Shown in pieces: positions 5,421 through 43,394 of a stretch of DNA of 64,000 bases. The translations under genes and the position numbers were made by a program. The number at the start of each line of letters is the position of its first letter. Positions within the stretch are counted from its first letter, which is position 1. The DNA is from Streptomyces sp. NBC_01268 (GTDB taxonomy: Bacteria > Actinomycetota > Actinomycetes > Streptomycetales > Streptomycetaceae), in assembly GCF_036240795.1 (NCBI RefSeq), contig NZ_CP108454.1, positions 2,170,001 through 2,234,000 on the forward strand, given 5' to 3'. Under the pieces are notes generated by a model. That model had not been told where the DNA came from, made no database searches, and saw only the letters and a program-made list of their open reading frames with translations.

Positions 5421-7703
5421 ATGGTCAGCAAGCCGCCCGCCGGCGATCCGGTCCAGGACGCGCCGCAGGTCACGGCGCCGCAGCACGCCGCGGCCGGTCT
5501 GCCCGCCGTCGCGCACACACTGCGGATCGCGCAGGCGCAGATGGGCGTGCGGCGCACCGCGCAGACCCTGCTCAAGGTCAACCAGAAGGACGGCTTCGAC
5601 TGTCCGGGCTGCGCCTGGCCCGAGGGCGACAAGCGGCACGTCGCGGAGTTCTGCGAGAACGGGGCGAAGGCGGTCGCCGAGGAGGCGACGCTGCGCCGGG
5701 TGACCCCGGAGTTCTTCGCCGCGCATCCGGTGGCGGACCTGGCGGCCCGCAGTGGGTACTGGCTGGGCCAGCAGGGCCGGATCACGGACCCCATGTACCT
5801 GGCGGAGGGGGCCGAGCGGTACGAGGCGGTGTCCTGGGAGCGGGCCTTCGCGATCCTCGCGGAGGAGCTGACGGCGCTCTCCTCACCCGACGAGGCGCTG
5901 TTCTACACCTCGGGGCGCACGAGCAACGAGGCCGCGTTCCTGCTCCAGCTGTTCGCCCGCGAGTTCGGCACCAACAACCTGCCGGACTGCTCCAACATGT
6001 GCCACGAGTCCTCGGGCTCCGCGCTCAACGAGACGATCGGGATCGGCAAGGGCAGCGTCTCCCTGGAGGACCTGCACCGGGCGGACCTGATCGTGGTCGC
6101 GGGGCAGAACCCGGGCACGAACCACCCCCGGATGCTGTCGGCCCTGGAGAAGGCGAAGGCCGCCGGCGCGCGGATCATCTCGGTGAACCCGCTCCCGGAG
6201 GCGGGCCTGGAGCGCTTCAAGAACCCGCAGACGCCGCAGGGCATGTTCAAGGGCGCCGCGCTCACGGATCTCTTCCTGCAGATCCGCATCGGCGGCGACC
6301 AGGCGCTGTTCCGGCTGCTCAACAAGCTGGTCCTGGAGACGCCGGGCGCCGTGGACGAGGAGTTCGTCGCCGCGCACACCCATGGGTACGAGGAGTTCGC
6401 CGCCGCCGCGCGGGACGCCGACTGGGACGAGACGCTGGCGGCGACCGGTCTGTCCCGGGCGGAGATCGAGCGGGCCCTGGAGATGGTGCTCGCCTCGGAG
6501 CGGACGATCGTCTGCTGGGCGATGGGGCTCACCCAGCACAAGCACTCCGTGCCGACCATCCGCGAGGTGGTCAACTTCCTGCTGCTGCGCGGCAACATCG
6601 GCCGGCCGGGCGCCGGGGTGTGCCCGGTGCGCGGTCACTCCAACGTGCAGGGCGACCGGACGATGGGGATCTTCGAGCGCCCCTCGGCGGCCTTCCTCGA
6701 CGCGCTGGACAAGGAGTTCGGGATCGTCTCGCCGCGCCACCACGGCTTCGACGTGGTCCGCTCGATCGAGGCGCTGCGGGACGGCGAGGCGAAGGTGTTC
6801 TTCGCCATGGGCGGCAACTTCGTGGGCGCGACCCCGGACACCGAGGTCACCGAGGCGGCGATGCGCAGGGCCCGCCTGACGGTGCACGTGTCGACGAAGC
6901 TGAACCGCTCGCACGCGGTGACCGGCACGCGGGCGCTGATCCTGCCGACGCTGGGGCGCACGGACAAGGACGTGCAGAAGAGCGGCAAGCAGGTCGTCAC
7001 GGTCGAGGACTCGATGGGCCTGGTGCACGCCTCGCGGGGCAACCTGCCGCCGGCGGGCCCGCGGCTGCTCTCCGAGCCGGCGATCGTGGCCCGGCTGGCG
7101 CGGGCGGTCCTCGGCGCGGGCTCGGCCACGCCGTGGGAGGCCTTCGAGGCGGACTACGCGACGATCCGCGACCGCATCGCCCGCGTGATCCCGGGCTTCG
7201 AGGACTTCAACGCGCGGCTGGCGGCGAACCCGGGCGGCTTCGCGCTGCCGCACGCGCCGCGCGACGAGCGGCGCTTCCCGACGGCGACCGGCAAGGCCAA
7301 CTTCACGGCCGCGCCGGTCGAGTACCCGAAGGTGCCCGAGGGCCGGCTGCTGCTGCAGACCCTGCGCTCGCACGACCAGTACAACACCACGATCTACGGT
7401 CTCGACGACCGCTACCGCGGCATCACGGGCGGCCGCCGGGTGGTCATGGTGCACCCGGAGGACGCGGCGGCGCTGGGCTTCGCGGACGGGGCGTACGCGG
7501 ACCTGGTGAGCGAGTGGACGGACGGCAGCGAGCGCCGGGCGCCCGGTTTCCGGGTGGTGCACTATCCGACGACCCGCGGCTGCGCGGCCGCGTACTACCC
7601 GGAGACGAACGTGCTGGTGCCGCTGGAGTCCACGGCGGACATCAGCAACACCCCGGCGAGCAAGTCCGTGATCGTGCGACTGGTTCCCCCGGCGGGTGAC
7701 TGA
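5421..7703 (+). CDS. FdhF/YdeP family molybdopterin oxidoreductase
   Basis: 760 residues from the ATG at 5421, preceded by AAGGGAGAG. The N-terminus has the YdeP-type signature DGFDCPGCAWPEGDKRHVAEFC, followed by molybdopterin-oxidoreductase motifs: SGRTSNEAAFLLQLFARE, LPDCSNMCHESSG, AGQNPGTNHPRML and GNIGRPGAGVCPVRGHSNVQGDRT. A C-terminal molybdopterin-dinucleotide-binding domain begins near residue 635. The family is related to formate dehydrogenase H, but the electron donor is unproven; YdeP in E. coli is linked to acid resistance. It is cytoplasmic, with no Tat signal. No fdhD or electron-carrier gene is adjacent, so it appears to be transcribed alone. Confidence 0.9.
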   Translation: MVSKPPAGDPVQDAPQVTAPQHAAAGLPAVAHTLRIAQAQMGVRRTAQTLLKVNQKDGFDCPGCAWPEGDKRHVAEFCENGAKAVAEEATLRRVTPEFFAAHPVADLAARSGYWLGQQGRITDPMYLAEGAERYEAVSWERAFAILAEELTALSSPDEALFYTSGRTSNEAAFLLQLFAREFGTNNLPDCSNMCHESSGSALNETIGIGKGSVSLEDLHRADLIVVAGQNPGTNHPRMLSALEKAKAAGARIISVNPLPEAGLERFKNPQTPQGMFKGAALTDLFLQIRIGGDQALFRLLNKLVLETPGAVDEEFVAAHTHGYEEFAAAARDADWDETLAATGLSRAEIERALEMVLASERTIVCWAMGLTQHKHSVPTIREVVNFLLLRGNIGRPGAGVCPVRGHSNVQGDRTMGIFERPSAAFLDALDKEFGIVSPRHHGFDVVRSIEALRDGEAKVFFAMGGNFVGATPDTEVTEAAMRRARLTVHVSTKLNRSHAVTGTRALILPTLGRTDKDVQKSGKQVVTVEDSMGLVHASRGNLPPAGPRLLSEPAIVARLARAVLGAGSATPWEAFEADYATIRDRIARVIPGFEDFNARLAANPGGFALPHAPRDERRFPTATGKANFTAAPVEYPKVPEGRLLLQTLRSHDQYNTTIYGLDDRYRGITGGRRVVMVHPEDAAALGFADGAYADLVSEWTDGSERRAPGFRVVHYPTTRGCAAAYYPETNVLVPLESTADISNTPASKSVIVRLVPPAGD

Positions 7704-35216: not shown

Positions 35217-35303
35217 ACGTGGGTGCCCACCGCCGAGGAGCTGCGACTGATCCGCGAGGTGATCGACCCCGAGGGCCTGCGGGACCGCGAGGTCCGGTCC
35301 TGA
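35217..35303 (+). pseudogene. 3' remnant of CoA-transferase beta subunit (IpdB-like)
   Basis: An open reading frame without a start codon reads PTAEELRLIREVIDPEGL then RDREVRS and stops with TGA. This is the usual C-terminal segment of class I CoA-transferase beta subunits of the IpdB type. The stop overlaps the ATG of the next remnant (TGATG), the coupling expected for an ipdB-ipdC pair. Everything between the operator's ribosome-site-like run and this fragment appears deleted. Confidence 0.55.
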
Positions 35304-35601
35304 TGACGGGGATCGGGACCCCACCGACCAAGCCGGTCGGCGCCGAGCACCCGATCGCGCAGACCGGCACGGGCCGGGTCGCCGGCCCCCGCCCCGTCCC
35401 GTGCCCCTGGTGGCTTCCACGGTCGAGGGCCGCACCGACCTCGGCGTCATGACCTCCGGACAGGTCGCGGAGGTGATCGAGGACCTGCCCGGCTGCGAGG
35501 AACTCGTCACCCGGACCGCGTCCGGGGCCGCGCACGTGCTCCGTACCCTCCCTTCTCTCCGACGGAGTCAGTCATGTCCCTCTCCAGACGCGCACTGCTG
35601 A
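35303..35601 (+). pseudogene. Internally deleted nitronate monooxygenase (IpdC-like)
   Basis: The ATG at 35303 opens MTGIGTPPTKPVGAEHPIAQ and TGTGRVAGPRPV, which resembles the FMN-binding N-terminus of nitronate monooxygenases (intact: GVEHPIVQTGMGWVAGPRLV). From about 35401, in another frame, comes VASTVEGRTDLGVMTSGQVA and EVIEDLPGCEELV, resembling the C-terminus of the same family. Roughly 270 residues between them are missing, with a frame change at the junction. The end runs into the phosphatase gene. It is not functional. Confidence 0.55.
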
Positions 35602-36470
35602 GCACCGCCGGCGCCACCGCCATCCTGGCGGCCACCGCCCCGCCCGTCCTGGCCAGGCCACGGGTCCGCACCGCGAACGCCATCCGGCAGGTCCCCCTCC
35701 AGGGCGCGGTCAACGTCCGCGACCTGGGCGGATACCTCACCTACGACGGGGCCCGGGTCCGGCACGGCCTGGTCTACCGGGGCGACCACCTCGGCAAACT
35801 GACCGCCGCCGACCTGACCGTGCTGGGCGGCCTCGGCCTCGCCCGGGTGATCGACTTCCGGATCCCCCTCGAAGTCCAGTCCGACGGCACGGACCGCCTC
35901 CCGGCCGGCCCCGTTCTCGTCTCCCGCCCCGTCACCGACAACGGCCTGTACGGGCAGCTGCTCGCCGCGATCGGCTCGCGCGACCCGGTCCGGCAGGAGC
36001 AGATGCTGGGCGGCGGCCGGGCGGCGGCCTTCATGACCGAGGTGTACCGCACCTTCGTCACCAGCCCCGCCAACCGCGAAGGCTTCGGCACGACCCTGCG
36101 CGAACTGGCCGCCCCGGGCGCGGGCCCCCACCTCTACCACTGCACCTCGGGCAAGGACCGCACGGGCTGGACCAGCTGGCTGCTCCTCACCCTCCTCGGC
36201 GTACCGGAGCGGACGGCCACCGAGGACTACCTGGCCTCCAACACCTTCCGCGCCGCCAACGACGCCCGCGTCCGCGAGGGTCTCCGCCAGGCCGGCCTGA
36301 TGCAGAACCCGGACCTGATCATCCCCCTCCAGGAAGTCAGCCGCCCCTACCTGGACGCCGCCCTCGCCGAACTCCGCACCGCCTACGGCAGCGTCTACCA
36401 CTACCTGACGGACGGCCTGGGCCTGGACCTGCCGGTCCTGGCGGCACTGCGGCGGCGGTTGGTGGACTGA
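35574..36470 (+). CDS. Tat-exported tyrosine phosphatase
   Basis: 298 residues, ATG start. A twin-arginine signal (LSRRALLSTAGATAILAA, with A-rich cleavage region) predicts export. The phosphatase belongs to the tyrosine-phosphatase 3 family (PtpB-like): VNVRDLGGYLTYDG near the N-terminus, the P-loop HCTSGKDRTG (Cys near residue 190) and a C-terminal helical region ending LPVLAALRRRLVD. It likely removes phosphate from phosphotyrosine or phosphoinositide at the cell surface. The start overlaps the tail of the decayed ipdC-like remnant. A hairpin follows. Confidence 0.9.
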   Translation: MSLSRRALLSTAGATAILAATAPPVLARPRVRTANAIRQVPLQGAVNVRDLGGYLTYDGARVRHGLVYRGDHLGKLTAADLTVLGGLGLARVIDFRIPLEVQSDGTDRLPAGPVLVSRPVTDNGLYGQLLAAIGSRDPVRQEQMLGGGRAAAFMTEVYRTFVTSPANREGFGTTLRELAAPGAGPHLYHCTSGKDRTGWTSWLLLTLLGVPERTATEDYLASNTFRAANDARVREGLRQAGLMQNPDLIIPLQEVSRPYLDAALAELRTAYGSVYHYLTDGLGLDLPVLAALRRRLVD

Positions 36471-36508: not shown

Positions 36509-36647
36509 GTGGACCTCCGCACCAGGGCCTGCGACAAACCGACCGGAATTCCCCAACGCACCGATCCCATCGTGCAGTTAATCTTTCTGCGCCCACCGAA
36601 GCGTGATCGCGAAGCCTGATCGCACGAGCGTCTGGAGAGTGCCGCCG

Positions 36648-37907
36648 TTGAGTACCGATCTCAGCACCGCGACCGGCGCCCGGCAGTTTGTCACGGTCGT
36701 CTTCCCCGTACGGCTGCCTGCTCCGCCCCCGTGGGAGACCGGCCCCCTGCCGCTCCGGCTCGGCGCCCGCACGACCGACGCGGGAACCCGGCAGACCTAC
36801 TTCACCCCCGCTGCCGCCCGCGCCCTGTACGGCACCCCCGAACGTCCGTGCCGCTGGCACACGTTCACGTCCGTGGCACACGGCGACCTCACGCTGCGGG
36901 CGATGGAGATCCTGCACACCGCCACCGCACAGCACCCGCGGCACGCCCTCGCCATCCTGCACCTCGACGTGAAGGGGCCGTCGCTGCTGACGACCCTGCG
37001 GGCCATCGGCCAACGGCCCACGGCGGGCCCCGACCCGCTCGACGGCCCACTCGACCCGGCCGTACTGCTCGCCGGCATCGCGGTGCCGATGACCGCCCAG
37101 GGCCCCTTCGCCATCGCCCGCCCCTACACCGTCGCCTTCCTGACCCCGCGCACCGAGCACACGGCCGCGTTACGGATCGACGGGCGGCTGCCGGACTCGG
37201 CCGACGGCTGGCTGTGGTCGCTCGCGTCCCGCTCCGCCGACGCGGACTTCCCCTCCGCGCCGGAGCAGTTCCCCCGGCAGACCGCCGACACGGTGCGCAT
37301 CTCGGCGGACTGGAGCGCGCTGGTGCTGCGGCACGGAGCGGCGTTCCTGGGCCATCGCCCGGACACCGGCGACGGGGACTTCTACGAGTTCGCCGCGCTC
37401 CACTCCCGGACCGTGTACCTGGACGCGATCCTGCTCGGCACCATCCAGCGCGACCACGTCGACGAGCTCACCGAGGGCCTGTCGAACGTCTTCGACGGGC
37501 GGCGGCTGGCCCGCCGGGTGACCGCGCTGGAGCGCCACATCGCCGCCTTCCGCAGCACGTACTGGCGGCAGCACCTCACGGCGCACGGCCCGGCGAACGA
37601 GCTGCTCGTCGCCTTCCAGGCGCAGTACCGACTGGCCGACCGCTTCGCGGAGATCCTCGCCGAGGCCGCCGACTACAGCCGGCTCGTGCAGACACAGGAC
37701 AACCAGCAGATCGCGGGCGCGCTCGGCGTACTGACGATCCTCGGCCTCCCCCTCAGCACCGCCCTGGGCATCCTCCAGGTCCTGGGGGACGAGAGCCCGG
37801 CGCACATGCTGATCGGCCTCGGCGCGGCCCTGGTCGCCACCGCCGGCGCCTTCGCCACCCGCTACGGCCGCATCGTCCTGGCCTCGCTGAGCGGGGACCG
37901 GCGGTAG
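36648..37907 (+). CDS. CorA-like two-helix membrane protein of unknown function (TTA codon)
   Basis: About 419 residues from a TTG at 36648 behind GGAGAG; a GTG at 36603 has no ribosome site. The N-terminal 270 residues are a soluble alpha/beta region (FVTVVFPVRLPAP, YFTPAAARALYG, LHLDVKGPSLLTTLRAIG). Then comes a long helical stretch (RRVTALERHIAAFRSTYW, FAEILAEAADYSRLVQTQ) and two C-terminal membrane helices (ALGVLTILGLPLSTALGIL and LIGLGAALVATAGAFA). This resembles CorA-type stalk-plus-two-helix topology but lacks the GMN filter motif. Leucine 175 is a TTA codon (37170-37172), so expression probably needs bldA. It sits just upstream of the four-gene GTGA-coupled operon. Confidence 0.7.
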   Translation: MSTDLSTATGARQFVTVVFPVRLPAPPPWETGPLPLRLGARTTDAGTRQTYFTPAAARALYGTPERPCRWHTFTSVAHGDLTLRAMEILHTATAQHPRHALAILHLDVKGPSLLTTLRAIGQRPTAGPDPLDGPLDPAVLLAGIAVPMTAQGPFAIARPYTVAFLTPRTEHTAALRIDGRLPDSADGWLWSLASRSADADFPSAPEQFPRQTADTVRISADWSALVLRHGAAFLGHRPDTGDGDFYEFAALHSRTVYLDAILLGTIQRDHVDELTEGLSNVFDGRRLARRVTALERHIAAFRSTYWRQHLTAHGPANELLVAFQAQYRLADRFAEILAEAADYSRLVQTQDNQQIAGALGVLTILGLPLSTALGILQVLGDESPAHMLIGLGAALVATAGAFATRYGRIVLASLSGDRR

Positions 37908-37952
37908 CCGGACGAGGCGGAGAAGTGGCTGGCGGGCACCCGTCGGCCTTGG

Positions 37953-37958
37953 TAGCTT
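37953..37958 (+). promoter_or_regulatory. Possible -10 element of the module operon
   Basis: TAGCTT preceded by TTGG, followed by an A-rich GCGAAAAAC start-site region 32 bp before the GTG; the -35 is weak. Confidence 0.3.
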
Positions 37959-37990
37959 CCGCGAAAAACAGTGAAGAGGACACGGGCGAC

Positions 37991-39256
37991 GTGACGGTGA
38001 ACGAGGGGGAGCCGATCCGGTTGTACCGGAAGGCTTTGCGCTACGCGGAGGCGGACCCGGAGGTCTTCCTCAGCACGGCACGGAGGGCGGCGGAGTCGAT
38101 CCTGTTGGATATCGCCATACAGCAAGCGGTCGGCTCGAAGCCGACGCTGGAGTCCTTGTTGACGACCCTCACGGCGAAGGGCCTGGTCCCGCAGAAGGTC
38201 GTGCTCGCCGTGCGGACCATCCAGAACTACGGCAACTACGGCAGTCACGCGCAGGACGCCGCCGATGAGGAGATCTCCACCGAGGACGTGCAGCCGTGCC
38301 TCAACGCCCTGACGCAGCTGGCGGTCTGGTACGGCAGGACCACCGCGTCGTTCGCGGAGGACGAGGCCCAGCACGAGCTGTCCGCGATCAAGCACCGTTC
38401 GGGGACGACCCGTCTCGCCGACTCGACGCTGATCGTCGTGAAGGCGGTGCTGCTGGGCTGCGGGTTCGACGAACTCCTCGGACGTCGCCGTCATCGCGTG
38501 GTGCATGTGCAGATGCCGTGGTCGGACAGACTGGTGACCGACGTCGCCGGGGGCCTGCTGGACCTCGCCGTCTACAACGAGCAGCGGTTGCTGCGCATGA
38601 GGGAGACGGACCCGGAGGTCGCCTCCCAGGTCGTCCCCGTCGGCCAGGTCGGCTACTCGATGGGCGGCCGCAACTTCTACCTCCTCGCCGCCCGGGACGG
38701 GCGCTGGGGAGACACCTCGGGCGAGGAGTTCCTGCGGGACCCCGCAGGGGCGACGATCGCCGTGCCCAAGCACAGCGACATGTTCGACAACATCCTGCGG
38801 GCGTTCTCGACGGACGAGGCGGGACTGGCGGAGAAAGGGGTGCGCATCCTCGACGTGCCGCACCACCTGGGCCTGGAACTGTTCCACCTCAACGGGGACG
38901 TCCTGGCGGTCGGCGGTCAGAACCTGCGGATGCACGCCCTGGAGGACGACGCGTACTTCGAGCTGCTGAACTCCGACATGCTGCCCGCGGAAGCCCAGGC
39001 CCAGCTGCGGTCCGCGGCCGCGAACGTCCTGCTGGCCAACCGCACCTGGCTGGAGGAGCTGAAGGTGCCGCCGGAGCAGTTGCACCAGGAGTCCATGCGT
39101 TCCTTCCACGATCTGAGTTCGGAGGAGGCGCGGTTCGAGGAACTGGTGCGCGACCTGGTCACGCACGCCTCGTTCCCGCTGCAGAACACCGGTGAGAGCA
39201 GGGAGCGGCTGGTGCGGCACGTCCTGTTCGAGAGTTACCGGCTGGGGCGCCCGTGA
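37991..39256 (+). CDS. DUF4145 (HEPN-like) domain fused to a cytosolic type-2 periplasmic-binding-like domain
   Basis: 421 residues from the GTG at 37991 (GAAGAGG upstream). Residues about 10-130 look like DUF4145, a HEPN-superfamily fold: FLSTARRAAESILLDIAI, LVPQKVVLAVRTIQNYGNYGSH and an acidic final helix. The canonical HEPN RNase spacing (R-x4-6-H) is not met. Residues about 140-400 resemble NMT1/SBP-type binding proteins (DVAGGLLDLAVYNEQ, ATIAVPKHSDMFDNILRAF, LELFHLNGDVLAVGGQNLRMHAL) but there is no signal peptide, so the domain would bind its ligand inside the cell. It is the first of four overlapping genes and probably the sensor or regulator. Confidence 0.65.
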   Translation: MTVNEGEPIRLYRKALRYAEADPEVFLSTARRAAESILLDIAIQQAVGSKPTLESLLTTLTAKGLVPQKVVLAVRTIQNYGNYGSHAQDAADEEISTEDVQPCLNALTQLAVWYGRTTASFAEDEAQHELSAIKHRSGTTRLADSTLIVVKAVLLGCGFDELLGRRRHRVVHVQMPWSDRLVTDVAGGLLDLAVYNEQRLLRMRETDPEVASQVVPVGQVGYSMGGRNFYLLAARDGRWGDTSGEEFLRDPAGATIAVPKHSDMFDNILRAFSTDEAGLAEKGVRILDVPHHLGLELFHLNGDVLAVGGQNLRMHALEDDAYFELLNSDMLPAEAQAQLRSAAANVLLANRTWLEELKVPPEQLHQESMRSFHDLSSEEARFEELVRDLVTHASFPLQNTGESRERLVRHVLFESYRLGRP

Positions 39257-40110
39257 CCCGGCCCCGCCGTGTGCTCGTGGCCGGGGGCACCAACTTCGAC
39301 ATCATCGTGCACGCCGGGCGGCTACCCGAGGAGCACGAGAAGCTGCGCGGCGGCGAGTACAGCGCCCAGCCGGGCGGCTCCGCCGCCAACACGGCGCTCG
39401 GCCTCGCCCGGCAGGGCTGCGAGGTGCGGCTGGTGTCGGCGGTGGGCGACGATCTGCTCGGCCGGGTGTGCCTGGAAGACCTGAGGGCGGGCGGGGTGGG
39501 CACCGGGCTGATCCACGTCGAGCCCGCCGCGAGGACCGGCATGGCGATCGTCCTGGCCGCCGGTGACGGCAAGCGGATGATGACCTTCCCCGGTGCCGAC
39601 CGCGACGCGGCGATCGCCTCGGTCACCGCGGACGACGTCCGCGGGGTGGACCACGTCCACCTCGTCGGGGAGCCTCGGCCGGCGCTGGCCCGCCTCGCGT
39701 CGCTAGCCCGGGAGGCCGGCCGTTCCGTCTCCGTGGAGTGGAACGGGCGGGACATGGGGGCGTCCCTCGGGCGGGGGGCGCTGAACTTCATGAACGCGGA
39801 CGAGGCCGCCCGCCTGCCCGACGCGGTCCCCGGCGACCCCGAGGGCACGGCCCTCAGGTACGCCGCTGCCCTGTCCGGTCATGTGATCCTGACTCTGGGG
39901 CCGAGCGGCGCGCTGTGGGCGTCGCCGGACGGCAGGGTCGTCACCGAACCGACCGTGGCCGTCCGCCCGGTGGACCGGACCGGGGGCGGCGACGCGTTCG
40001 ACGCGGGTTTCCTCGCCGGCTGGTTGAGCGGGGAGGACCCGGCGTCCTGCCTGCGCCGAGGGCTCGACGCCGCACTGCACGTGATCACGAAGATTGGAGC
40101 TCAGCCGTGA
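39253..40110 (+). CDS. PfkB-family carbohydrate/nucleoside kinase
   Basis: 285 residues, GTG in a GTGA overlap with the preceding gene. Ribokinase-fold motifs: VLVAGGTNFDIIVHAGRLPEE, PGGSAANTALGLARQG (substrate side), and the ATP-site signature DRTGGGDAFDAGFLAG with the catalytic Asp. It would phosphorylate a sugar or nucleoside-like substrate on a primary hydroxyl. The N-terminal EEHEKLRGGEY differs from ribokinase, so the substrate is open. It lies between the binding-domain protein and the 2H phosphoesterase. Confidence 0.85.
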   Translation: MTRPRRVLVAGGTNFDIIVHAGRLPEEHEKLRGGEYSAQPGGSAANTALGLARQGCEVRLVSAVGDDLLGRVCLEDLRAGGVGTGLIHVEPAARTGMAIVLAAGDGKRMMTFPGADRDAAIASVTADDVRGVDHVHLVGEPRPALARLASLAREAGRSVSVEWNGRDMGASLGRGALNFMNADEAARLPDAVPGDPEGTALRYAAALSGHVILTLGPSGALWASPDGRVVTEPTVAVRPVDRTGGGDAFDAGFLAGWLSGEDPASCLRRGLDAALHVITKIGAQP

Positions 40111-40733
40111 CGAGATGGCTCGGCATCGCCCTGTTGCCCAGCGCGGAACACCGCACGACCGCGATTCGCCTCCAGGGGGAGGTGGGCGGCGACCACGTGT
40201 TGCGGCCGCCGCTGAGCCCGGAGGGCAACCTGCCCCATGTCACGGTGTTCCAGGGCCCGTTCCTCGACTCCCTCGACCCGGCGGCCGAGCTCGACCGGAT
40301 AGTCGACACCGTGGACGCACCGGAGCGGATCGCCCTGGCTTCGCACGGGGTCGTCTACCAGCCCACCGGCTGGGTGTTCCTCTCGCTGGAGCGACCCGCC
40401 CTGCTGGAGAGGATCCAGCAGGCGACGCTGAAGGCGCTGGAGCCGCATCTGGACCGGGCGGCGTTCGACCCGTCCAAGGACGTCTCTCGGTTCACCCCGG
40501 ACGAGCGGGAGAGCTTCGAGCGGTACGGGTACAGGTACACCGGACCCGCGTACGCGCCCCACATCACGTTGGGGCGTGCCGAGGAGGCGGTGGCCAAGGA
40601 GCTGGTCCGGTCGGCGCCCGAGCGGGTGGACGTGCCGGGGACCTGGGACTTCGACCGCTTCAGCTTCTACGTGATGGGCGAGAACGGCGCTCATGCGGAG
40701 ATCCTGGAGGAGAGGATGCTGACCCCGAGGTGA
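40107..40733 (+). CDS. 2H phosphoesterase superfamily protein
   Basis: 208 residues, GTG in a GTGA overlap. Two H-x-T motifs define the superfamily: LPHVTVFQG (about residue 42) and YAPHITLGR (about 151). Related enzymes hydrolyse 2',3'-cyclic phosphates, ADP-ribose 1'',2''-cyclic phosphate, 2'-5' oligoadenylates, or signalling nucleotides. The middle carries DPSKDVSRFTPDERESFERYG, not typical of RNA 2'-5' ligases. It is coupled to a kinase upstream and an IMPase-type phosphatase downstream, suggesting consecutive steps on one phosphorylated nucleotide or sugar. Confidence 0.8.
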   Translation: MTRWLGIALLPSAEHRTTAIRLQGEVGGDHVLRPPLSPEGNLPHVTVFQGPFLDSLDPAAELDRIVDTVDAPERIALASHGVVYQPTGWVFLSLERPALLERIQQATLKALEPHLDRAAFDPSKDVSRFTPDERESFERYGYRYTGPAYAPHITLGRAEEAVAKELVRSAPERVDVPGTWDFDRFSFYVMGENGAHAEILEERMLTPR

Positions 40734-41515
40734 CATCGGAGAGTGAGCTCCTCGCCGTCGCGGGTGAGGCTGTCGACGCGGGGGCGCGCTGGCTGGCCGG
40801 GGCGGACGCGGACTGGGCCCGGGCCCGGCGCAAGCCCTCGGGTGAGGAGGTCACCGACGCCGATGTGGAGATCGAGCACCGGGTCTCCGCGTTCCTGCGC
40901 CGGCGGACCCCGGACATCCCGGTCATCGGCGAGGAGAGCTTCGCCGGGGGGCCGTTGCCGGACCGGTGCTGGCTGCTCGACCCCGTCGACGGCACGATGA
41001 ACTTCGCCCGCGGCGCGCCGCTGTACGGCATCTCGCTGGCGTACGCGGAGGGCGGATCGCCACGGCTCGGGGTGGTCGACGCACCTGCGCTCGGCCGCCG
41101 CTGGTCGGCCGGCGGGAGCGTTCCGGCCGACCCGATCGCCACCGAGCCGCCCGAGGCCGTACGGGAAATCCGGCGGGCGGTCGTCGGCCTGACCGGCACC
41201 GGCTCCGGCGATCCACGGGCGCGGATCCTGCTGGCACTGCTGTACGACGAGGCCTACCGGATCCGGCTGCAGGGCGCGATGAGCCTGGACCTCGTCGGGG
41301 TCGCAGAGGGCTGGATCGACGCCTGTCTCTGCGTCGGCCCGAAGCCCTGGGACGTGGCGGCGGGAGTCCCGCTGGTGCGGGAGCGCGGTCTGGCGGTCCT
41401 GGGCGCGGACGGGGCGGACTACGGCTTCGGCTCGCCCGTGCTCGCGGCGGGCAGCCGCCGGGCGGCGCGGGAGCTGCTCGAACGGTGGGGGCAGGCCGGC
41501 GTGGCCGGCCCCTGA
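40730..41515 (+). CDS. Inositol monophosphatase-family phosphatase
   Basis: 261 residues, GTG in a GTGA overlap with the 2H gene. Metal-binding motifs are intact: GEES (about residue 67), DPVDGTMNFARG (about 84) and GPKPWDVAAG (about 206). The family includes inositol-1-phosphatases, 3'-phosphoadenosine phosphatases (CysQ), NADP phosphatases and histidinol phosphatases. Mg-dependent removal of a phosphate from the 2H product is a reasonable guess. It is the last gene of the module and is convergent with the KstR2-like regulator. Confidence 0.87.
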   Translation: MTSESELLAVAGEAVDAGARWLAGADADWARARRKPSGEEVTDADVEIEHRVSAFLRRRTPDIPVIGEESFAGGPLPDRCWLLDPVDGTMNFARGAPLYGISLAYAEGGSPRLGVVDAPALGRRWSAGGSVPADPIATEPPEAVREIRRAVVGLTGTGSGDPRARILLALLYDEAYRIRLQGAMSLDLVGVAEGWIDACLCVGPKPWDVAAGVPLVRERGLAVLGADGADYGFGSPVLAAGSRRAARELLERWGQAGVAGP

Positions 41516-41566: not shown

Positions 41567-42193
41567 CTAAGCGCGTACGGCGATTCCGTCCAGGACCATC
41601 GACAGGTACTGGCGGGCGATCTCCTCCGGGGTGTGCCGGCCGCCGGGGCGGTACCAGGACGCGGCGACCCAGACGGTGTCGCGCACGAAGCGGTAGGTGA
41701 GCCGGAGGTCGAGGTCGGGGCGGAAGACGCCGGCGGCGACCCCGCGCTCCAGGGTGCCGAGCCAGGCCTTCTCGAACCTGACCTGCGAGTCGGCGAGGTA
41801 CTGGAAGCGGTCCTGGTCGACGAGGTGGCGGGACTCCTTCTGGTAGATGGCGACGGCGGCGCGGTGCCGGTCGATCTCCCGGAAGGATTCGGTGACGAGG
41901 GCCTCGATGGTCTCCCGGGGGCCGAGGCCGGCGGCGAGCACGGTGTCGTAGCCCTCCCACAGCTCGTTCAGGAAGGTCGAGAGGATCTCGTCGAGCATCG
42001 ACTCCTTGGAGTCGAAGTGGTAGTAGAGGCTGCCCGCGAGCATGCCGGCCTCATCCGCGATCCTGCGGACGGTGGTGGCGTTGTAGCCCTGGGCGGCGAA
42101 CACCTCGGCGGCGATGTCGAGGAGCTCGCGGCGCCGCTCGGGCGACGCGGTCACCTGGGGCTTCTTCTTGGCGGATGTCTTGGTCGTCGGCAC
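41567..42193 (-). CDS. KstR2-like TetR-family repressor
   Basis: 208 residues from the GTG at 42193 (PTTKTSAKKKPQ start); frames upstream look non-coding. The N-terminal HTH is LLDIAAEVFAAQGYNATTVRRIADEAGMLAGSLYYHFDSKE. The C-terminal ligand domain ends VFRPDLDLRLTYRFVRDTVW and ASWYRPGG, then QYLSMVLDGI, extremely close to mycobacterial KstR2 (FRPDLDVDLVYRFIRDTTW, QQYLAIVLGGI). KstR2 represses steroid C/D-ring (HIP) catabolism and responds to HIP-CoA. None of those genes is intact in the window, but a KstR2-type operator and ipdB/ipdC remnants lie 6 kb away. Confidence 0.85.
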   Translation of the reverse strand: MPTTKTSAKKKPQVTASPERRRELLDIAAEVFAAQGYNATTVRRIADEAGMLAGSLYYHFDSKESMLDEILSTFLNELWEGYDTVLAAGLGPRETIEALVTESFREIDRHRAAVAIYQKESRHLVDQDRFQYLADSQVRFEKAWLGTLERGVAAGVFRPDLDLRLTYRFVRDTVWVAASWYRPGGRHTPEEIARQYLSMVLDGIAVRA

Positions 42194-42320
42194 ACGTCCA
42201 TTCTGGTACCACGCGTGCCGGCTGCCGACCGGGACCGGCCCGACGGTCGTGCGCGAGGAGCAGGGGGCCGGTCGGGGCACGACGACGGTCCTGGTGTCGG
42301 CCCGGGTGGTTCCTTCGGCC

Positions 42321-43004: not shown

Positions 43005-43394
43005 TCACTCCGCGTGCTCGGCCGCTGCCCGCTCCCCCTTGCTGCGCTCGACGCAGAACTCGTTCCCCTCCGGGTCGGCCAGGACCGCCCACCCCAGGCC
43101 GTCCGGGCGGCGCTGGTCGTCGACGAGGGTGGCGCCGAGGGCGAGGAGGCGCTCGACCTCCTCCTCGCGGGTGCGGTCCTCCGGCTGGAGGTCGAGGTGG
43201 ATCCGGTTCTTCACCGACTTCTTCTCCGGCACCTGGATGAAGAGCAGGCCCGCGCCCGGCGACTCCACCAGTACTTCGGTGTCGCCCGGCCGGTCGTCGT
43301 CGGAGAGCTTGGAGTCGAGGACCTGGGCCCAGAAGCCGCCCAGGGCGTAGGCGTCGGCGCAGTCGATGGTGATGTGGCGTACGAGAGAGCTCAT
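43005..43394 (-). CDS. VOC (glyoxalase/bleomycin-resistance) family protein
   Basis: 129 residues, ATG start, one VOC-fold domain made of two beta-alpha-beta-beta-beta modules: VRHITIDCADAYALGGFWAQVL, KNRIHLDLQPEDRTREEEVERLLALGATLVDD and WAVLADPEGNEFCVERS with the metal-ligand Glu. Members bind a divalent metal and act on aldehydes, aromatic diols or antibiotics; the specific role is not apparent. It is separated from the PPOX gene by the TCCGGA array. Confidence 0.88.
   Translation of the reverse strand: MSSLVRHITIDCADAYALGGFWAQVLDSKLSDDDRPGDTEVLVESPGAGLLFIQVPEKKSVKNRIHLDLQPEDRTREEEVERLLALGATLVDDQRRPDGLGWAVLADPEGNEFCVERSKGERAAAEHAE

Follow-up and report, generated by a model that had tools for sequence, protein, structure and literature searches.

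A recurrent five-gene Streptomyces cassette with a CorA-like membrane protein, a predicted HEPN-headed sensor and three putative ligand-processing enzymes

Results

A five-gene cassette in constant order

We analysed a 64,000-nucleotide stretch of Streptomyces sp. NBC_01268 DNA (contig NZ_CP108454.1, positions 2,170,001 to 2,234,000; hereafter the window), in which five genes, here called A to E, lie on the + strand at 36648-41515. The strongest new fact is that one CorA-like protein family, to which A belongs, is common to this cassette and to operons made of a methyltransferase, a STAND-FGE protein and an A gene. Judged from sequence, the cassette probably consists of a sensor, signal-processing enzymes and a membrane effector, and its role is probably defence. 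The reading that we favour, tentatively and with somewhat less than even confidence, is that the five genes are one cassette for small-molecule signalling, in which B would sense a ligand, C, D and E would process it and A would be the effector.

Gene A (36648-37907) encodes a CorA-like predicted membrane protein of 419 amino acids (aa), assigned by PADLOC profiles. Gene B (37991-39256) encodes a DUF4145 (HEPN-like) domain fused to a type-2 periplasmic-binding-protein fold, assigned by Pfam and a structure model. Genes C (39253-40110; PfkB/ribokinase-family kinase, 285 aa), D (40107-40733; 2H phosphoesterase, 208 aa, Pfam 2_5_RNA_ligase2) and E (40730-41515; IMPase-family phosphatase, 261 aa) were assigned by Pfam. 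The last four genes overlap by GTGA at each junction, B/C at 39253-39256, C/D at 40107-40110 and D/E at 40730-40733, and a gap of 83 bases without overlap separates the stop of A from the start of B. The first-pass annotation of this DNA had given the same gene positions and the same three overlaps.

By tblastn the genes A-B-C-D-E were found in the same order in five further Streptomyces genomes, namely Streptomyces sp. CHD11 (locus L001), S. torulosus (L002), S. ossamyceticus (L003), Streptomyces sp. MA5143a (L004) and genome G100 (L011); L012 repeats L004, and L079 (G139, S. ossamyceticus) repeats L003. Gene presence was judged from tblastn because the gene caller missed true genes, such as B in L002-L004. 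A lies directly upstream of B in all six module loci seen, the window included. Compared with the window, the proteins of the other module loci are 67-71% (A), 74-77% (B), 64-70% (C), 62-65% (D) and 57-63% (E) identical. The constant order bears out the earlier proposal that the five genes, the first included, are a single module. The recurrence in unrelated actinobacteria that had been envisaged with it was not seen, since the named B-bearing genomes are all Streptomyces and the genome searches gave B in the window's genus only.

The DNA similarity of the window to L002, L004, L012 and L079 covers 36642-37896 and 37970-41451, that to L001 covers 36737-41470 and that to L011 covers 36795-41452, the widest extent of similarity between the cassette and the module loci of other genomes being 36642-41470 (+ strand). 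It starts at A rather than at B. Where the window has the cassette, the relatives G004, G006 and G015 have 3.3-3.5 kb of other DNA between the same flanks. Because the similarity ends near the cassette ends and these relatives carry other DNA between the same flanks, the cassette looks to have been acquired as one unit, which agrees with the acquired look described in the first pass. Two further matches do not adjoin the cassette: window 5441-7683 corresponds to the gene that directly follows the module in L001, and window 43050-43299 (43050-43257 for L002), which we take to be a glyoxalase-like stretch, corresponds to DNA that precedes the module by 1-2 kb in L002, L004, L012 and L079.

The flanks of the module loci were also compared with one another, L002 being left out. 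L079 and L004 are 96% identical across the module and have their upstream flank in common. In the pairs compared, L001, L011 and the L079/L004 pair have nothing in common beyond the module, the exception being a 371-base stretch downstream of the module that L079 and L004 both carry. We take the distinct module sites, with the window counted, to be four or more.

A second set of partners for the CorA-like protein

Protein A carries two hydrophobic segments near residues 354-380 and 384-404. Pfam gives it no match, and the PADLOC CorA-like profiles match all 31 A proteins scanned (best E 5.8e-14). Among 150 Streptomyces genomes, A matches were obtained in 25, comprising 14 full-length relatives (at least 56% identity) and 11 fragments or distant matches. 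Three of the 14 genomes with a full-length A have it with B-E, seven have it with an upstream methyltransferase and a long protein of the 884-aa type, and four have it with neither. Pfam analysis of three of the seven long proteins gave an FGE-sulfatase domain and STAND/NACHT-type nucleoside triphosphatase (NTPase) matches in all three; the NTPase matches are below the cut-off in two, and NACHT is above it in one. The other four were named by identity to the L072 protein. The motif RNRSTH is present in 7/7 of these STAND-FGE partner proteins. When the long STAND-FGE protein was searched directly it was found in 9/150 genomes, seven of them with an adjoining A; of the two exceptions, G002 has the methyltransferase without an adjacent A, and in G124 the copy is truncated. 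One PADLOC model, PDC-M16A, gives a weak match both to protein B and to the L072 protein.

In a tree of A with 18 rows, the A genes of L067 and L075, which have no partner, are nested among partnered ones, L069 lies at the base of the STAND-partnered group, and L076, the window and L011 have no resolved place. The minimum number of changes on this tree is at least three for the STAND-partnered rows and at least two for the B-E-partnered rows. What looked like a 945-aa partner of A in L069 we judge to be a reverse-strand artefact, as two open reading frames with higher third-position GC lie opposite it and Pfam gives it no match. At L115:5897-12383 (G072), a tight gene run with KH- and VWA-domain proteins, possibly a third type of partner, begins with an A relative of 34% identity.

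Protein B, the predicted sensor

Residues 14-103 of B match PF13643 (DUF4145) with 30.5 bits against a cut-off of 23.1. HEPN-like helices occupy about residues 7-132 and the type-2 binding fold about residues 136-418, and for the latter part (136-418) the structure model predicts a two-lobed type-2 periplasmic binding protein fold. Residues R141, Q310, N311 and R313 of B are invariant. The fused HEPN-like/binding-fold protein of the first-pass annotation was thus recovered by profile and by predicted structure.

The HEPN motif of B is degenerate (residues 75-86, RTIQNYGNYGSH; 38213-38248, + strand). In place of Rx4-6H, Gly81 stands at the Arg position in 44/44 alignment rows and His86 is kept in 43/44, in a register set by a pairwise alignment without significance (E 10); row P0065 has a different N-terminus. 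The invariant Arg75 lies 11 residues before the His. B therefore appears to have a HEPN motif without the catalytic arginine, and we set aside an active HEPN nuclease as its mechanism, weak as the register is.

The three enzymes

C matches PF00294 (PfkB) with E 5e-40 and carries the signature DRTGGGDAF in 5/5 loci read; the C-terminal signature of PfkB proteins usually contains GAGD, and C has GGGD. C resembles ribokinase and ribose-1-phosphate kinase; the latter is its best-scoring NCBIfam family, far below the cut-off of that family. C also matches acarbose 7-phosphotransferase (6wb7, E 3.5e-9). D has the two 2H motifs, HVT at residue 44 and HIT at residue 152, and in 103 alignment rows H44 is kept in 101, T46 in 102, H152 in 100 and T154 in 100. 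E matches PF00459 (E 9e-37), resembles HisN and CysQ phosphatases, and contains GEES, DPVDGT and WDVAAG, which we take to be the IMPase metal-binding motifs, in 5/5 loci read, with GEET instead of GEES in L011. The 2H, PfkB and IMPase families named in the first pass are supported by these intact catalytic motifs.

A role in RNA repair proper, which had been raised as speculation, is weak, as A-E include neither an RNA ligase nor an RNA-end kinase; the Pfam family of D, though called 2'-5' RNA ligase, is the 2H family.

Distribution of the genes

B was found in 3/150 Streptomyces genomes and in 3/293 genomes of the order, all Streptomyces; among 396 genomes of the phylum and 394 of the class only the window's own genome had it. 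The order, phylum and class samples overlap, and such a first look may miss distant relatives. D occurred in 4/150 genomes: in the same three as B it reaches 65% identity or more, and in G066 it is a decayed piece of 37 residues. Among the matches listed for C, those at 65% or more were confined to the same three of 150, the others reaching 41% at most, and E at 61% or more was confined to the same three among 60 genomes, the next match being 36%. The D piece of G066 (L078:6492-6602; 54% identity, then stops) is a decayed remnant far from the A gene of that genome.

In a large protein set B formed 65 clusters, four of them at 49-53% and three at 34-37% identity; beyond Streptomyces, proteins diverged to these levels are all that was found. 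Two B clusters of 49-50% and D relatives of 49-50% have longest contigs of equal size (6721 and 4938 bases), which suggests that the B-D link persists at about 49-50% identity. For 21/65 B clusters the longest contig has the same size as that of a D cluster, a hint of linkage at most.

The module as a phage- or plasmid-borne unit was rejected: B had no plasmid match, and 0/8 pattern matches in viral contigs encoded a relative. Parts of it are carried by plasmids. Methyltransferase, STAND-FGE and A genes stand together near the end of a 1.03 Mb linear S. mirabilis plasmid (L125, NZ_CP108478), and D is found alone on a mobilizable plasmid near an IS5 transposase (L124:8001-8627, NZ_CP109170).

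Neighbouring genes and flanks

In L075, A adjoins a type I methylase and lies 3.6 kb from BrxHI, which is followed by BrxD; the region with the methylase and BrxD/BrxHI around this unpartnered A gene spans L075:3061-13991 (G066). In L067, A lies 1.5 kb from a type I methylase. In L079 the module lies 4 kb from DrmA and a UvrD/GajB-like helicase; L079:12441-19977, with a DrmA-like helicase, the UvrD/GajB-like helicase and a further helicase-type protein, is a DISARM-like locus (defence island system associated with restriction-modification). No strong PADLOC match was obtained among the few scanned neighbours of L001, L004 and L011. The defence neighbourhood is a lead only, because there is no control for enrichment.

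To the left of the cassette and outside the module, the window holds probable remnants (35225-35400, + strand) of a gene region, the intact version of which is found in G004, G006 and G015, and a gene common to these relatives (35574-36470, + strand), presumably phosphatase-like. The right-flank gene (41567-42280, - strand), which we take to encode a TetR-type regulator, is also present in relatives without the module. The TTA leucine codon mentioned in the first pass is present in gene A at 37170-37172 (+ strand); the A genes of L001 and L011 have one each and those of L003 and L004 none. No sigma-70-type promoter or intrinsic terminator pattern was found in the region, which says little in Streptomyces.

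Discussion

Proposed mechanism

Around the observed anatomy we infer a chemistry, an order of steps and a role in defence. B is predicted to bind a phosphorylated ligand, which C, D and E would make or clear. In a plausible path from D through E to C, a cyclic phosphodiester would become a monophosphate, then a free ribose compound, and would finally receive a new phosphate. This path, together with the parallel to CorA effectors of CRISPR (clustered regularly interspaced short palindromic repeats) systems, leads us to expect that C-E would clear or convert the signal, B would read it and A would act at the membrane. Ligand-loaded B would gate A, A would be an effector that harms or idles the cell, and the trigger would be phage infection or RNA damage; the signal itself may be a nucleotide. 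Because close A relatives adjoin an immune-receptor-like protein in other strains, the cassette is likely a stress- or infection-sensing system. The guess of defence draws indirect support from these A relatives behind STAND-FGE proteins and from the uncontrolled nearness to defence genes in three loci.

Comparison with known systems

No description of this five-gene set was found in the literature at title or abstract level. In type III-B CRISPR systems a CorA protein binds SAM-AMP (an S-adenosylmethionine-AMP conjugate) and its gene adjoins that of a signal-degrading phosphodiesterase (PMC10600005). Like A, this effector has a CorA-like membrane part behind a larger N-terminal domain, and like the cassette its cluster includes a phosphodiesterase gene (PMC10600005). 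Here, however, the phosphodiesterase is of the 2H type, not NrN or DEDD, and does not adjoin A, and B is likely the sensor; no NrN or DEDD phosphodiesterase or SAM-AMP lyase was found among A-E. Cmr2-type Cas10 was found in 0/9 A-bearing genomes (Csm1 was not searched), in a search that gave matches in 4/14 control genomes, in one of them above the cut-off. The lack of Cmr2 in these nine genomes speaks against A as a CRISPR ancillary gene and makes a Cmr2-made messenger an unlikely source of the signal. The arrangement is new and may work like CorA-effector signalling, yet on these tests it is not of the CRISPR kind.

STAND NTPase-FGS proteins have been published as conflict systems (PMC8195603), and relatives of A stand behind such a protein, with a methyltransferase. 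A-E include no STAND NTPase or FGS domain, both of which lie beside A in other genomes. The STAND NTPase-FGS section of that paper names neither DUF4145 nor CorA proteins, and in its main text DUF4145 is not mentioned and both text matches to CorA are the word "coral" (PMC8195603). B shares with the DUF4145 HEPN families its match to PF13643, but its catalytic Arg is apparently replaced, and the fusion to a type-2 binding fold is not described in the part of that source drawn on here (PMC3710099).

The predicted fold of B at 136-418 is that of SsuA, ThiY/Thi5 and the cytosolic regulatory versions in NrtC/CmpC; unlike SsuA/ThiY-type binding proteins, B is fused to DUF4145, and the cassette has no ABC transporter gene. 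D has in common with the 2H phosphoesterases LigT/ThpR the two HxT motifs, and we also liken it to Acb1, which we take to be a 2H phosphoesterase; D forms a family of its own, with its context known from a handful of loci.

Weighing the alternatives

Several observations weigh against a signalling cassette with A as effector. Of the 31 A family members none has a Pfam CorA match (presumably PF01544; matches to E 1), so that the kinship of A to CorA comes from the PADLOC profiles alone, and the GMN motif is present in 0/31; on the same two results we rejected A as a Mg2+ transporter. The structure model of A is weak and too poor for use (pLDDT, the predicted local distance difference test, 55.6), and neither the model (best E 0.77) nor the sequence (best E 0.23) gives a better match in the PDB. 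Eleven of the 14 genomes with a full-length A are without B-E, D was found once without the other module genes (L124), and the genome searches confine B to Streptomyces. PADLOC has no match to C, D or E, and no signal synthase is recognisable among the cassette proteins. DUF4145 in the STAND partner is below the Pfam cut-off in two proteins (17.7 bits against 23.1; E 0.004) and unlisted in the third, and the alignment of B with the DUF4145 part of the L072 protein is not significant (E 10), which makes a common sensor domain of the two uncertain. Finally, that three loci have BREX (bacteriophage exclusion), type I methylase or DISARM-like genes no more than about 5 kb away from A or the module is an uncontrolled count.

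It is possible, though doubtful, that the genes are instead a metabolic salvage operon. C, D and E would then turn an uncommon cyclic phosphodiester, such as the 2',3'-cyclic nucleotides derived from RNA, into a 5'-phosphate, with B as a regulator that binds the ligand and A as an ion transporter or a chance neighbour. The three enzyme families do make a chemically coherent path with the catalytic motifs kept, and the likeness of C to ribokinase and ribose-1-phosphate kinase, of E to HisN and CysQ and of the B binding fold to SsuA and Thi5 proteins is as salvage would have it. Less easily accommodated are the place of A directly upstream of B in six module loci, its STAND-FGE-type second partner elsewhere, the fusion of B to a HEPN-like domain and the patchy distribution (3/150).

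We consider it improbable that A and B work as a pair of the toxin-antitoxin-like or abortive-infection kind, in which case C, D and E would mend or detoxify damage done to RNA or NAD-derived molecules by the system itself or by a phage. The HEPN-like N-terminus of B would suit such a pair, as would the uncontrolled nearness of A or the module to restriction-modification, BREX or DISARM-like genes in three loci, but B apparently lacks the HEPN catalytic Arg (in an uncertain register) and the cassette lacks an RNA ligase or RNA-end kinase.

There is a slight chance that the genes confer self-resistance to a sugar- or nucleoside-like secondary metabolite, or tailor it; in that case C would add a phosphate to the metabolite, E would remove it again, D would act on a phosphodiester of the metabolite and B would sense it. 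Streptomyces are rich in such metabolites and C matches the acarbose enzyme 6wb7, but the cassette flanks differ and no further genes are common across the sites compared.

An accident of position, or an A that is an unrelated neighbour of a four-gene operon, is hardly credible. In its favour, A is not translationally coupled to B and is without B-E in 11/14 genomes, but in six genomes, at four or more sites, A immediately precedes B-E, the DNA similarity starts at A, not B, and for all five genes recurrence and cassette ends rule the accident out.

Significance

Beyond the signalling cassette favoured here, we put forward as somewhat unlikely that these genes belong to a new streptomycete immune system, a CorA-like effector family wired to interchangeable HEPN-headed sensors. 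The sensor would be either a STAND-FGE receptor or, in the present cassette, a cytosolic binding protein reading a ribose-phosphate signal, and a kinase, a 2H esterase and a phosphatase dedicated to that signal would make and erase it. Type III CRISPR systems have CorA-like effectors, which are believed to respond to a messenger made by Cas10. Nine genomes in which no Cmr2 could be detected carry a protein of this kind away from CRISPR, in one or the other of two types of operon. Should this interpretation be correct, it would become testable what a CorA-like immune effector responds to without Cas10, and whether its signal is a phosphorylated ribose compound. As a small, discrete unit in a soil genus that can be cultured, the cassette would allow each step to be put to the test.

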